Origin: Bacteroidota bacterium
GTDB lineage: Bacteria > Bacteroidota > Bacteroidia > Flavobacteriales > Schleiferiaceae
Direction of reading: 5' to 3'
DNA length: 32,488 bases
Assembly (NCBI GenBank): GCA_003045865.1
Contig: PZPB01000025.1
Location: 1-32,488 of the forward strand
Shown here: positions 1,611 to 32,488 of the stretch, piece by piece
Layout: each line of letters begins with the position of its first letter
Numbering within the stretch: position 1 is the stretch's first letter
Translations under genes and position numbers: made by a program
The notes under the pieces: generated by a model
Database searches by the model: none
What the model was told of the DNA's origin: nothing
Seen by the model: the letters and a program-made list of their open reading frames with translations, nothing else

Positions 1611-2354
1611 ATGCGCCAATCACTTTTAGCCATTTGCTGCGGCCTTTTTTTACTAAGCAGCTGCCAAGAAAAAGATCTATTGGTAGATAATCCTCCACCA
1701 CCAACAGATAACCTTTTATGGAGCTTTATACCCTTTTATGGCGAAGAGGGTTTGGACTATGATTCCATTTATAAAAATGATTTAGGAATCAGCTTTATGA
1801 TCGATTCAGTTTCGCTTTTAATTACCGACGTTAATTTTTACGACGAAAACCTTAAGCAAATTATTGATACTGCTCCTAATTTCATCTATCTAACTCGTGG
1901 TAATAGCGAAAAGCTAAATGGCTTATTACCAGCTGGTGGTTATTATGGTAGCTATAATATCTTTTTGGGCGCCGACTCTCTCAATGCTTTAAGCTATCGT
2001 CAGGAAGTCCAAAAAATTGCTCCCTCCATGGTTAGAGAAGATATTTTTGGCTTAGACTTTTTTAAGATAAAAGGTAGAATTTTCGATCCTTCAAAACTAC
2101 CTGATACAGTTTTAATTCCAGTAGAATATACACTGGGAACCTATCTTTTAACCGACACGATGAATACTGACCTTAGAAGTTTTAGTATCGATAATAGTCA
2201 GCAAATTACCATTGTTCTACTCGCTGATTTAAAACCGGTTTTATCCAGTCTCAATTTCAATTTAATCCAAGATATCTATAGCGACCCTACTGACTTACAA
2301 GATTTTACTCTTGCGCAACAGCTAAAAGACAGTCTGGCTATTGGTATTTTTTAA
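1611..2354 (+). CDS. MbnP-like surface/periplasmic lipoprotein, divergent copy
   Basis: The 247-residue product starts with a lipoprotein signal (MRQSLLAICCGLFLLSSC, lipobox LSSC, lipidated Cys18), so it should be anchored to the outer membrane. The body is not a strong match to anything I know, but its layout parallels the next gene: a short leading strand, an 'IDSVSLLITDVNFYDENLKQI' style segment where the neighbour has 'FKLYLSNIRLMRND', then a middle region and a C-terminal 'ITIVLLADLKPVL' strand matching the neighbour's 'IVLNFDLEKLF'. I infer a diverged MbnP-type domain. Nine bases separate it from the downstream gene, so the two are surely co-transcribed. Lipoprotein status is seen directly; the domain assignment is an inference from comparison with the neighbour. 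Confidence 0.75.
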   Translation: MRQSLLAICCGLFLLSSCQEKDLLVDNPPPPTDNLLWSFIPFYGEEGLDYDSIYKNDLGISFMIDSVSLLITDVNFYDENLKQIIDTAPNFIYLTRGNSEKLNGLLPAGGYYGSYNIFLGADSLNALSYRQEVQKIAPSMVREDIFGLDFFKIKGRIFDPSKLPDTVLIPVEYTLGTYLLTDTMNTDLRSFSIDNSQQITIVLLADLKPVLSSLNFNLIQDIYSDPTDLQDFTLAQQLKDSLAIGIF

Positions 2355-2363
2355 CCCACCAAT

Positions 2364-3122
2364 ATGAAAACCTTAAAAATCTCTGCCCTAATCGTTCTTA
2401 GTCTAATTCTGGGTACTGCTTGTGAAAAAGACAATAATGAAGAATCTGTCCAAGGTATTTTAAGGTTTAGAACAGAAATGACCTCTGGACTGCAAAGTCA
2501 GAAGTTCAATATCGGGGATACCATTCAAATAGGAAACTATGATTTCAACTTAAAGAAATTTAAGTTGTATTTGTCTAATATCCGCCTGATGAGGAACGAT
2601 AGTACTTTTCTAGAGATTAAGGATATTCTTTTGGCCGATGTGGGTGATGATATTACGGGGCAGTTTAGTGTAAATTTAGATCCGGATGAATTTACAGGTC
2701 TTTATTTAGGCTATGGCCTAGATACCGCTCAAAATAATTCGATTCCTGAAAGTTTTGAAAGAGACCATCCCCTCTCCTCCTTTAATCAGATGTATTGGAC
2801 GATGTTAAAATATCGCTTTGCGATTTTAGAAGGACGTTCGAATTTAGTCGATTCTTTGGGTACTAATAGTGATAAACTTAATGCTTATCATCCTGGTACC
2901 GACGTTTTATACCGCACCAAAAGCTTTCCGCTTAATTTAAAAATTGAAGAAGATGGTTCAAAAACCATAGTGCTCAATTTCGATTTGGAAAAACTGTTTG
3001 TGGGAAACGATACTATTGACCTTATGACGGAACCCCAAACTCATTCGGAGCAAGTTGATTTTCATATTGCCACTAAATTTATGGACAATTTGAAAGATTG
3101 TGCAGAAATTTCTCTGCTCTAG
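2364..3122 (+). CDS. MbnP-like family lipoprotein
   Basis: The 252-residue protein has a lipoprotein signal peptide ending LGTAC (Cys20) followed by an acidic, asparagine-rich linker. The mature part shows the MbnP-family pattern: FNLKKFKLYLSNIRL near the N-terminus, a glycine-rich 'GLYLGYGLD' strand, and the characteristic 'MYWTMLKYRFAILEG' segment with a conserved Trp. MbnP proteins were first linked to methanobactin operons, where a partner di-heme protein (MbnH) oxidises a tryptophan and copper is bound. No di-heme peroxidase or TonB receptor is adjacent here, so a copper role is not supported by context. It follows the preceding lipoprotein after 9 nt and is followed, after 40 nt with its own promoter box, by mpl. 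Confidence 0.8.
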   Translation: MKTLKISALIVLSLILGTACEKDNNEESVQGILRFRTEMTSGLQSQKFNIGDTIQIGNYDFNLKKFKLYLSNIRLMRNDSTFLEIKDILLADVGDDITGQFSVNLDPDEFTGLYLGYGLDTAQNNSIPESFERDHPLSSFNQMYWTMLKYRFAILEGRSNLVDSLGTNSDKLNAYHPGTDVLYRTKSFPLNLKIEEDGSKTIVLNFDLEKLFVGNDTIDLMTEPQTHSEQVDFHIATKFMDNLKDCAEISLL

Positions 3123-3136
3123 TTCTTAGTATGCCG

Positions 3137-3144
3137 TAGCTTTG
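3137..3144 (+). promoter_or_regulatory. -7 promoter box TAGCTTTG upstream of mpl
   Basis: TAGCTTTG is an exact TAnnTTTG match. The in-frame TTG at 3142 lies inside this box, so it cannot be the translation start of a transcript made here; the ATG at 3163, 18 nt after the box, is the likely start. Confidence 0.5.
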
Positions 3145-3162
3145 TTCTACAAAATATCATCC

Positions 3163-4515
3163 ATGAAAATACATCTTATTGCCATCGGAGGCAGCGCGAT
3201 GCACAATTTAGCTATCGCCCTTCACCAACAGGGACATGCAGTAAGTGGAAGTGACGACGAAATTTTTGAACCTTCAAAAAGTCGATTGGCTAAATATGGA
3301 CTTTTACCCAACCAAATGGGATGGGATGAGAAAAATATCTCTGATAGTCTTGAACTAGTTATTTTGGGTATGCACGCCCGTACTGATAATATTGAGTTAA
3401 AAAAAGCCCAAGAATTGGGACTAAAAGTTCTCTCTTACCCCGAGTATTTATACGAAAACAGTAAAGATAAAACCCGCGTAGTAATTGCTGGTAGCCATGG
3501 GAAAACTAGTATTACCGCGATGGTTTTACATAGTCTCCACTTTCACAATCGTGATTGTGATTATATGGTGGGCGCACAGTTAGAAGGCTTTGAAACCATG
3601 GTAAGGCTTACTAATCATAATGAATTTATTCTTTTAGAAGGGGATGAATACCTCTCCTCGCCTCTCGATCCGCGACCTAAATTTATTCATTATAAACCCA
3701 ATATCGCACTCTTGTCTGGCATTGCCTGGGATCATGTAAATGTTTTCCCCGACTATGAGGATTATAAAAAACAATTCGATCAATTATTAGATTGCATAGA
3801 ACCGGGTGGAGTGATCATTTATAATGAGGACGATCCGGAAGTATTAGATGTTATTCATCGCACTAAAAATGAGGTGAAAAAATTCCCTTATAGCCTTCCT
3901 ACCTATCGAGTAGAAGATCAACATTTCATTCTCGACACCTTTGAGGGAGATTTAGAATTAAAAGTATTTGGCGCTCATAACATGAGTAATCTGGAGGGTG
4001 CACGTTGGATCTGCAACCAAATGGGCCTTAATGATGAAGAATTTTATGAGGCAATTGAAGAATTTGAAGGTGCTTCTAAGCGTCTCGAAAAAATGGATGT
4101 TGCGGTAAATTATGATATTTACCGTGATTTCGCCCACGCCCCATCTAAAGTTAGAGCGAGCGTTTCGGGTACTAAGGAAACCTATGGCGACAAAAAGTTA
4201 GTTGCTGTTTTTGAGCTTCATACTTTCAGCAGTCTTAGTATTAATTTTATTAGTCAGTATAAGTCCAGCTTAGATAAGGCCGATAGCGCCATTGTGTACT
4301 ATAACCCGAAAGTACTAGAGCATAAAAAGTTAGCTCCTCTTGATGCTATTTCGGTGAAGGAAGCTTTTGGCAATCCAAACATAGAGGTCATTACTGACCG
4401 CGAAGAGTTGATTAATACCATCAAAAATAGAGGTGCTTCTGCAGATGTGTTATTACTGATGAGCTCCGGTAATTTCGATGCCATTAACTGGACAGAAGAA
4501 CTAATTAAGGGATAA
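3163..4515 (+). CDS. mpl: UDP-N-acetylmuramate:L-alanyl-gamma-D-glutamyl-meso-diaminopimelate ligase
   Basis: The 450-residue product is a Mur ligase. It begins with the Rossmann-like MKIHLIAIGGSAMHNLA typical of Mpl and MurC, has the ATP loop AGSHGKTS (109-116), the central LLEGDEYLSS and 'SGIAWDHVNVFPDYEDY' segments, and a C-terminal 'YRDFAHAPSKVRAS' motif. Family knowledge: Mpl attaches recovered murein tripeptide to UDP-MurNAc, short-cutting peptidoglycan synthesis in the cytoplasm. Mpl rather than MurC is favoured by the 'FEGASKRLE' and 'DFAHAP' motifs and by the length of about 450. The frame is open further upstream to a TTG at 3142, but that codon is inside the promoter box, so ATG 3163 is used. 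It is followed after 24 nt by pyrR with its own promoter box. Confidence 0.9.
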   Translation: MKIHLIAIGGSAMHNLAIALHQQGHAVSGSDDEIFEPSKSRLAKYGLLPNQMGWDEKNISDSLELVILGMHARTDNIELKKAQELGLKVLSYPEYLYENSKDKTRVVIAGSHGKTSITAMVLHSLHFHNRDCDYMVGAQLEGFETMVRLTNHNEFILLEGDEYLSSPLDPRPKFIHYKPNIALLSGIAWDHVNVFPDYEDYKKQFDQLLDCIEPGGVIIYNEDDPEVLDVIHRTKNEVKKFPYSLPTYRVEDQHFILDTFEGDLELKVFGAHNMSNLEGARWICNQMGLNDEEFYEAIEEFEGASKRLEKMDVAVNYDIYRDFAHAPSKVRASVSGTKETYGDKKLVAVFELHTFSSLSINFISQYKSSLDKADSAIVYYNPKVLEHKKLAPLDAISVKEAFGNPNIEVITDREELINTIKNRGASADVLLLMSSGNFDAINWTEELIKG

Positions 4516-30419: not shown

Positions 30420-30920
30420 ATGAAGATTACTCTATTAAGCGATAGTCATTCTTATATGGATGAGCAAGTTTTAAAGTTATGCGCAGGAAGCGATGAAATT
30501 TGGCATGCGGGTGATATCGGTAGCCCGAGAGTATGCGATCAACTAGCTAAAGTGGCTAAAGTTAGAGCCGTTTTTGGGAATATTGATGACCCAAGCCTAC
30601 GGAGAGAATGGCCCGAAGAACTAGCTTTCGAAATTGAAAATTATAAAGTTTGGATGACCCATATTGGTGGTTATCCTGGTAGATATCATCGTGGCATTAA
30701 AGAAAAGCTTCGTGAATTCAAACCCGATCTTTATATCTGTGGTCATAGCCATATATTAAAAGTGATGTCTGACAAGGATTTGGGATTACTCCATATGAAT
30801 CCTGGTGCGATTGGTAAACAAGGTCTACACCAAATAAGAACCTTACTCCGCTTTAAAATTGAGAACGGAAAGTTAAGTGATTTGGAAGTTGTTGAACTGG
30901 AACGCTGGCCTAAAAACTAA
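30420..30920 (+). CDS. YfcE/MJ0936-type metallophosphodiesterase
   Basis: From ATG 30420 the product is 166 residues. It has the calcineurin-like metal-binding series: SDSHSY (7-12), WHAGDIG, FGNID, a His in 'MTHIGG' and CGHSHI, then 'MNPGAIG'. The length fits the YfcE/MJ0936 family of small, single-domain phosphodiesterases that act on model substrates; the natural substrate is unknown. A TTG at 30384 would extend it by twelve basic residues but lies in the promoter-like box, so ATG 30420 is used; an AGAAGA stretch precedes it. Its stop overlaps the DUF4293 stop by 4 nt. Confidence 0.9.
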   Translation: MKITLLSDSHSYMDEQVLKLCAGSDEIWHAGDIGSPRVCDQLAKVAKVRAVFGNIDDPSLRREWPEELAFEIENYKVWMTHIGGYPGRYHRGIKEKLREFKPDLYICGHSHILKVMSDKDLGLLHMNPGAIGKQGLHQIRTLLRFKIENGKLSDLEVVELERWPKN

Positions 30921-31321
30921 CGTAAGCGATCGGCCGCTCTAATCATCATTTCGTCTTGCATAACTCCACGGTTGGCTAGCGAAATTAAAACAACACTTAC
31001 GATAGGCAGGAAAATACCGATGCCTAAAGCTTTAGGATCGGTGCCGAAATTCTCGTACCAGAAGTAAAAAAGAAAACCGATCACGATAAAAAGAAGTATA
31101 ATATTGAGTCGCCCCAACACCACTTGCAGCTGACGCCTTTTAAACATAAAAAGAGCTACAAAACTTAAAATAGCACTTAAAATAAAGAGCGTCAAGAAAA
31201 TAGGATAATCCACCAAAGTCTTACGCCCTGTCTCGCTTTGAAAAAAGCTCACAAAAAAAGCAAGAAGGCCCATGATTAAACCTGAGGCCGCGAAATATAG
31301 CGTCTGAATTCTCTGAATCAT
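30917..31321 (-). CDS. DUF4293 family membrane protein
   Basis: The 134-residue protein has four membrane helices (about 8-28, 40-58, 68-88 and 98-115) and the DUF4293 opening MIQRIQTLYF, closing with 'MMIRAADRLR'. The family is restricted to Bacteroidota, often near rho, and has no known function. A CAATTTTG at 31343-31336 on the minus strand, one mismatch from the -7 consensus, lies 14 nt before the ATG. The 3' end overlaps the phosphodiesterase gene by 4 nt. It is divergent from rho across a 195-nt region. Confidence 0.9.
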   Translation of the reverse strand: MIQRIQTLYFAASGLIMGLLAFFVSFFQSETGRKTLVDYPIFLTLFILSAILSFVALFMFKRRQLQVVLGRLNIILLFIVIGFLFYFWYENFGTDPKALGIGIFLPIVSVVLISLANRGVMQDEMMIRAADRLR

Positions 31322-31389
31322 TTTAAAATTTTCGACAAAATTGCTAAAAATTGTGGGATAAGCTTAGGCTTAATGGAATTCTTTGTAAT

Positions 31390-31457
31390 ATTGTGCACCT
31401 TGTTAAGGAGAACGATTTGTAAAAATATCCTAGTTAAAGGATATGCCTTAGCACAAT
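31390..31457 (+). ncRNA. Candidate structured RNA upstream of rho
   Basis: A nested fold can be drawn: ATTGTGC (31390-31396) pairs with GCACAAT (31451-31457); TAAGG (31404-31408) with CCTTA (31446-31450); ATATCCT (31425-31431) with AGGATAT (31438-31444) around a 6-nt loop. On the 3' side the three arms are contiguous apart from one G. A competing hairpin CCTT-GTT-AAGG (31398-31408) would exclude the middle stem. ATTCTTTG at 31378-31385, a poor -7 match, could start a transcript near 31391. A T-rich stretch follows from 31464. It may be a small RNA or cis-element; it does not match a family I know. Confidence 0.3.
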
Positions 31458-31499
31458 CACCATCTTTTATTTCATCTTTTTAGAAAGATTAAGCAAAAT

Positions 31500-31509
31500 T
31501 ATCTTTTTG
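31500..31509 (+). promoter_or_regulatory. Possible -7 box TATCTTTTTG upstream of rho
   Basis: A TAnnTTTG-like box with two extra T residues, ending 7 nt before the rho ATG. If used, rho mRNA would be nearly leaderless and exclude the upstream RNA fold. Confidence 0.3.
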
Positions 31510-31516
31510 TATTCCC

Positions 31517-32488
31517 ATGTACGACATTAATCAGTTAAAGGCTTTAAAGCTGCCCGAGCTTAGGCAAATTGGAGAAGCCGCCCGCATTAGTAAATTCCGC
31601 ACTATCAAGAAATTAGAGCTTATCTATGCGATTTTAGATAAACAAGCCGTAAATCCAGAGGCGGTTAAAGACATTAAGTTTACGCCGGTACCGGACGACA
31701 AGCCTGCTGAAGTTGAAATGGCTCCAGAACCAAAAGAAAAAGTTATTTCGGCGAAGCCAATCCTTCGGAAAAAAAATCCCGAGGAAAATAAAGAGTCTAG
31801 CACTGAAAACCCTAAAGCTGCTGGCGACCAACGCAGAGATCCGCGTGCCAAAAACACCGACTCGCGTCCTCCACGCGGAGATAGACAGAACGAAAAGCTT
31901 CCCAATAAGCGTACAAATCCCGACTTAAAAGAGGACGAAGCAAAGGATGGTCCTGAGAATAGTGCAAAACCTATTATCAAAGATCGAAGAAACGATAACC
32001 CTCGCGATAACCGTCCTCATAAAAACGATAATCGTAAAAACGATCCCCGCCCAGAAGCTCGTAAAGACGAAAGAAAGGAGGATCGTAATGATGATCGAAA
32101 AGAGGACAGAAAGGAGGATCGTAAAGAAGAGCGCAATGATAATAACCGCACTGAAAATCGCTCGGATAACAACCGTAACGATTCTAACCGCGGCCAAGAC
32201 TCAAGGCAGAATAACAATCCTAGACAAAACAACAATCAACGTAATCGCCATCGCGAATATGACTTTGATGGTATTGTAGTAAGCGAAGGCGTATTAGAAA
32301 TGATGCCGGATGGTTATGGTTTCTTGCGTTCAAGCGATTTCAACTATTTAAATTCCCCTGACGATATTTATGTGTCACAAAACCAAGTAAAGCTTTTTGG
32401 CTTGCGCACGGGTGACACAGTAAAGGGTCAGATTAGGCCTCCGAAAGAAGGTGAAAAATATTTTCCATTAGTTAAAGTAGAAAGTATT
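31517..32488 (+). CDS. rho: Transcription termination factor Rho, N-terminal part (cut by window)
   Basis: The frame is open from ATG 31517 to the last base, giving 324 residues and no stop. Residues 1-45 form the Rho N-terminal helical domain ([18 protein letters not shown]). Residues about 48-247 are a long disordered insertion; about 155-246 is dominated by Asp, Arg, Asn, Lys and Glu with RKED/DRKE repeats. Residues 254-324 are the RNA-binding cold-shock-like domain ([16 protein letters not shown], '[18 protein letters not shown]'). The helicase domain lies beyond the window. Rho is a hexameric RNA-dependent ATPase ending transcription. Bacteroides Rho has a comparable insertion that can drive phase separation. 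Other frames in the repeat region give long but spurious reading frames. Confidence 0.95.

Follow-up and report, generated by a model that had tools for sequence, protein, structure and literature searches.

The window analysed here is a stretch of 32,488 nt from a member of the Schleiferiaceae (Flavobacteriales; contig PZPB01000025.1). Near its right end a 195-bp space separates the divergent genes DUF4293 (minus strand) and rho (plus strand), and the feature under study sits in this space. The rho gene is preceded by its own promoter, with a -7 box at 31386-31393, and then by a 119-nt leader that runs from the predicted start to the ATG. The features of the locus are listed below by coordinates and strand.

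30917-31321, minus: DUF4293 gene, divergent neighbour (Pfam PF14126, E 4.8e-26)
31336-31343, minus: likely -7 box of DUF4293, CAATTTTG, with one mismatch to TAHHTTTG
31386-31393, plus: rho -7 promoter box TAATATTG, with one mismatch to TAHHTTTG; kept as TAWTATTGC in relatives
31390-31396, plus: 5′ arm of stem 1 as first drawn; promoter DNA, before the predicted +1
31398-31516, plus: predicted rho leader RNA, 119 nt, with the start placed from the -7 box
31398-31408, plus: competing mini-hairpin, CCTT 31398-31401 / AAGG 31405-31408; pair probability 0.03-0.05 in the leader
31401-31408, plus: outer helix 5′ arm TGTTAAGG in the minimum-energy fold from +1; sampled pair probabilities 0.47-0.60
31425-31431, plus: inner hairpin 5′ arm ATATCCT (stem 3); sampled pair probabilities 0.87-1.00
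31438-31444, plus: inner hairpin 3′ arm AGGATAT, from the same sampling of pair probabilities
31446-31453, plus: outer helix 3′ arm CCTTAGCA in the minimum-energy fold from +1
31454-31516, plus: G-poor, pyrimidine-rich tract of rut-like composition (C 0.18 and G 0.07 over the final 60 nt, which ranks at the 86th percentile among 123 control regions)
31517-32488, plus: rho coding sequence (Pfam Rho_N and Rho_RNA_bind), truncated by the window end

By motif search 24 of 30 family loci have the start of DUF4293 ahead of rho, and the block CAAAATTGC at the likely DUF4293 -7 box is found in all seven of seven genus members. Separately, TAATTTTG on the minus strand at 31494-31501 is a full match to TAHHTTTG and could start an antisense RNA over the rho leader. 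The Rho protein itself displays a long charged low-complexity insert, encoded at 31690-32270, between Rho_N and the RNA-binding domain. The insert recalls the disordered part of Bacteroides Rho that has been linked to condensates, which are under study in Bacteroides.

Start-site maps place the Bacteroidota -7 box at -12 to -5 (PMC9723704, PMC6847099). Since TAATATTG occupies 31386-31393, rho transcription is predicted to start near 31398, a position derived from the box. Leaders in F. johnsoniae average 33 nt (PMC6847099), and the 119-nt rho leader is thus long. The rho upstream regions of relatives have a strong common block, TAWTATTGC, and the fifth place of the box (-8) is an A in 90 of 100 non-redundant regions; the F. 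johnsoniae -7 consensus is described with a nearly invariant T at -8 (PMC6847099). The commonest form of the rho box is TATTATTGC (32/100 non-redundant regions). Three Bacteroidales loci (L074-L076) have TATATTTGC or TACTTTTGC at the rho box, which are full matches to TAnnTTTG. It should be noted that the box was picked as the best score in a search range, and therefore some of the relatives' boxes may be wrong.

A sequence-only reading of this region had drawn three nested stems, a weak -7 box placed before the first of them, a competing hairpin and a T-rich tract. The stems are complementary as drawn, with 7-nt and 16-nt bulges on the 5′ side: stem 1 is ATTGTGC 31390-31396 / GCACAAT 31451-31457, stem 2 is TAAGG 31404-31408 / CCTTA 31446-31450, and stem 3 is ATATCCT 31425-31431 / AGGATAT 31438-31444. 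The nest as a whole nevertheless differs from the minimum-energy fold, which, when stem 1 is included, consists of stem 1, stem 3 and the CCTT/AAGG pairing, with stem 2 unpaired. The -7 box is real and is kept in relatives, but instead of standing clear of the first stem it covers its 5′ arm. As an RNA helix stem 1 was rejected, because its 5′ arm falls in promoter DNA, within the -7 box and upstream of the predicted start, and because its complement is found downstream in only 2 of 100 leaders, those of the window and of L196. The exact 68-nt span folds with z -2.45 (3 of 200 shuffles as good), a value that belongs to a span selected for foldability; wider spans are ordinary, with z -1.01 for 31378-31516 and z -0.46 for the whole intergenic region.

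Folding from 31398 gives a structure in which an 8-bp helix, 31401-31408/31446-31453 (stem 2 extended), encloses a 7-bp hairpin, 31425-31431/31438-31444. The first 60 nt of the window's predicted leader (+1 to +60) fold with z -2.72. The leader structure is moderately supported.

A tendency to fold at the same place is found across the order. From 183 extracted rho upstream regions, 170 passed the filters (box score, leader length, unknown bases) and 100 were non-redundant; L041-L054, largely duplicates of family genomes already included, were left out of the extraction. Positions +1 to +60 of the 100 non-redundant leaders have a mean z of -1.18 against shuffles (t-test p 6.6e-15), with mean z -0.07 in the DNA upstream of the promoter (n=100) and -0.54 in the remainder of the leader (75 long enough). 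Of 24 leaders from the window's family, 22 have a negative z. Among 95 leaders profiled for pairing, 5′ arms are enriched at +1 to +12 and 3′ arms at +19 to +35. The hairpin sequence varies between clades while its position stays. Upstream regions of other genes (n=123; all controls are predicted genes) have a mean z of -0.51 at -100 to -41, compared with -0.87 for rho (p 0.004). In the 20 of these 123 regions with a usable box-anchored leader the mean z is -0.42, compared with -1.17 for rho (p 0.004). The controls, too, are slightly more foldable than their shuffles, so that some of the signal is shared by upstream regions in general; the rho excess is modest.

The seven leaders of the window's genus (the window and six genus mates) do not align and show no shared structure, and the window's stems stand outside the covariation results. 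Partial helices with few changed pairs are present in the subsets L013/L017 and L014/L015/L016, with several broken pairs in the latter. No helix was found in the small sets g4, g6 and g13; sets g12 and g18 and the trio L077/L078/L082 have helices without two-sided change, and a six-member set with L098 has a 4-pair helix that is broken in some members. The rho leaders of Christiangramia/Gramella (L055-L070) display a second conserved stretch, AAACTTTTT...GAGAAGTTTT, which could pair as a further hairpin.

A match was found in 107 Flavobacterium genomes, and the leaders come from part of these loci (46 collected). Alignment A4 holds 41 of the 46 (39 distinct), leaving out L132, L151, L153, L158 and L159 and taking in L232-L236, whose folds follow a different register and enter the counts unaltered. 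Alignment A5 and the covariance model R1 are made from 34 sequences, without L232-L236, L244 and L250; alignment A2 is excluded from the counts. In L237-L260 and other Flavobacterium loci the hairpin occupies rho-leader positions of roughly +4 to +30. In A4, 79.9% of its cells are paired, two-sided changes affect 29 cells compared with 15.3 in shuffles, and the covariation score is 0.295 compared with 0.182, each reached by 0 of 500 shuffles. Versions of the hairpin slid along the alignment all have fewer paired cells, fewer two-sided changes and a lower score. The two stricter of the five covariation measures are not above shuffles (3 vs 3.0 for the number of pairs with two-sided change; 11 vs 10.6 for further pair types), and RNAalifold does not predict the helix. 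An earlier alignment of 13 Flavobacterium sequences was weaker (score 0.216 vs 0.144, 6/500 shuffles; two-sided changed pairs 2 vs 2.3). By some measures the Flavobacterium rho-leader hairpin shows compensatory changes. The check for compensatory changes that accompanied the sequence-only reading turns out positive in part, for this hairpin only, and the leaders of the window's genus gave no alignment.

In the 34-sequence Flavobacterium core, GUA and CUUCAU are invariant. These invariant loop bases suggest recognition, at a possible sequence-specific binding site. With R1 at E up to 1, three Flavobacterium genomes gave one match apiece, at rho, and two genomes from other genera gave no match; the three matched leaders were themselves members of R1, and 150 of 1886-3252 first-look candidates were scored per genome. 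Over 44 loci R1 detected two Paenimyroides leaders weakly (E 0.085 and 0.39), both at the corresponding position, and part of L132 at E 0.98. It gave no match, at E up to 1, in L002, which carries the window's leader.

Downstream of the hairpin the leaders have a C-rich tract with little G that resembles Rho-loading sites. The T-rich tract noted after the stems is present, and it is also G-poor. The 100 nt before rho have C 0.197 and G 0.098, compared with 0.163 and 0.151 in 123 controls (p 1.7e-21), and YC dimers are enriched as well against these controls (p 2e-11). The excess of C over G extends to the last 40 nt (p 2.5e-11, 100 rho vs 162 controls). In rho leaders G falls to 0.06-0.10 from +30 onward, and C and G are about equal in the DNA before the promoter and in the coding start. 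The confinement of the bias to the leader therefore points to selection on the RNA. The window's own bias is moderate, at the 70th percentile of 20 control leaders and the 82nd-86th of 123 control regions. For the Rho proteins of B. subtilis and E. coli, mapped rut sites have more C than G, more U than G and less structure (PMC12350095); the same paper states that no combination of descriptors, composition included, identifies rut sites reliably.

The structured region, the conserved promoter and the rut-like tract together make a rho control element, one of the two possibilities raised from the sequence, the best reading, with the regulation itself being inferred. We give about an even chance to the locus being a rho promoter followed by a structured rho leader that acts in cis and plausibly serves the autoregulation of Rho. 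Transcription would begin near 31398, and the first 56 nt of the RNA would fold into a two-tier hairpin (outer tier 31401-31408/31446-31453, inner tier 31425-31431/31438-31444). The next ~60 nt, up to the start codon, would present a G-poor, pyrimidine-rich strand. Most likely this part of the leader is where Rho would load on its own message, and when abundant it would bring transcription to an early stop there. The 5′ hairpin may shield or position the tract, or may protect the mRNA end. A further proposal, somewhat short of an even chance, is that an undescribed Flavobacteriales rho element, composed of a promoter with an unusual -7 box (A at -8), a 5′-proximal hairpin kept in place with turnover of its sequence, and a tract with more C than G, sets Rho levels by Rho-dependent attenuation, and that in Flavobacterium the loop CGUAAG-N2-CUUCAU has become a sequence-specific site where a regulator binds.

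Two explanations, of about equal probability, do without feedback. The 5′ hairpin could be a plain mRNA stabiliser, with the G-poor tract merely keeping the start codon unstructured. A generic end structure would be expected to keep its position while its sequence turns over between clades, as is found here, and the upstream regions of control genes likewise fold slightly. The stabiliser is nonetheless rather unlikely, given that the excess of C over G is larger than upstream of other genes, and this holds for the last 40 nt as well (100 rho vs 162 controls, p 2.5e-11), and that the invariant loop bases in Flavobacterium suggest recognition. Alternatively, promoter and leader could be ordinary, the window's fold a product of chance and the relatives' hairpin not shared by the window. 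This agrees with the z values of -1.01 and -0.46 over the wider spans, and with a window leader that neither aligns to its genus mates nor matches the Flavobacterium model. Against it are the z of -2.72 for +1 to +60 of the window and the 22 of 24 family leaders that beat shuffles, and we regard a chance fold as unlikely.

Far less probable is an independent small RNA of 70-100 nt, the second possibility raised from the sequence, or a two-state switch between the stems and the CCTT/AAGG hairpin. The alternative pairing exists and could form first during transcription, but its probability of 0.03-0.05, compared with 0.47-0.60 for the outer helix, leaves the switch weakly supported. Nothing was found in support of the small RNA. 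A scan of 31250-31620 for an intrinsic terminator or attenuator (a G+C-rich hairpin with a T run immediately after it) gave 0 sites, and Rfam gave no match in the window or 20 rho-leader loci. Terminator-like sites are present in 7 of 100 relatives' leaders, compared with about 1 in mononucleotide shuffles, so that a few relatives may use a terminator.

The reading of the locus as a rho control element has some wider bearing. PMC13269538 describes Rho as an essential factor of Gram-negative species. The presence of a hairpin in the same position before rho in related bacteria hints that Rho's own mRNA helps set the amount of Rho. With a leader hairpin and a rut-like tract together, feedback by Rho can be tested directly in a laboratory strain such as Flavobacterium johnsoniae. 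The mRNAs of its phylum are described as being without Shine-Dalgarno sequences (PMC6847099).

The literature searched, which did not extend to subscription papers and preprints, gave no description of a leader element of rho for Bacteroidota. The nearest described motif is Pseudomon-Rho (Rfam RF01720), a structured RNA named for rho and classed as cis-regulatory (PMC2864571). The same source lists it for Pseudomonas, unlike the Flavobacteriales host of the window, and at gathering scores RF01720 had 0 matches in the window and 20 rho-leader loci. The Flavobacterium hairpin modelled by R1 shares with the window the rho gene and the same place after the same -7 box; the window is without its CGUAAG-N2-CUUCAU sequence. 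E. coli and other bacteria autoregulate Rho through attenuation within the rho leader (PMC6582626). Autogenous Rho attenuation as in E. coli and B. subtilis has in common with the rho leaders analysed here, taken as a group, a long leader directly before rho, with more C than G, poor in G and rich in YC, as Rho-loading sites are. The leader described here differs in having an additional 5′-proximal hairpin at a position kept across the order, and in that Rho binding and termination are here inferred.
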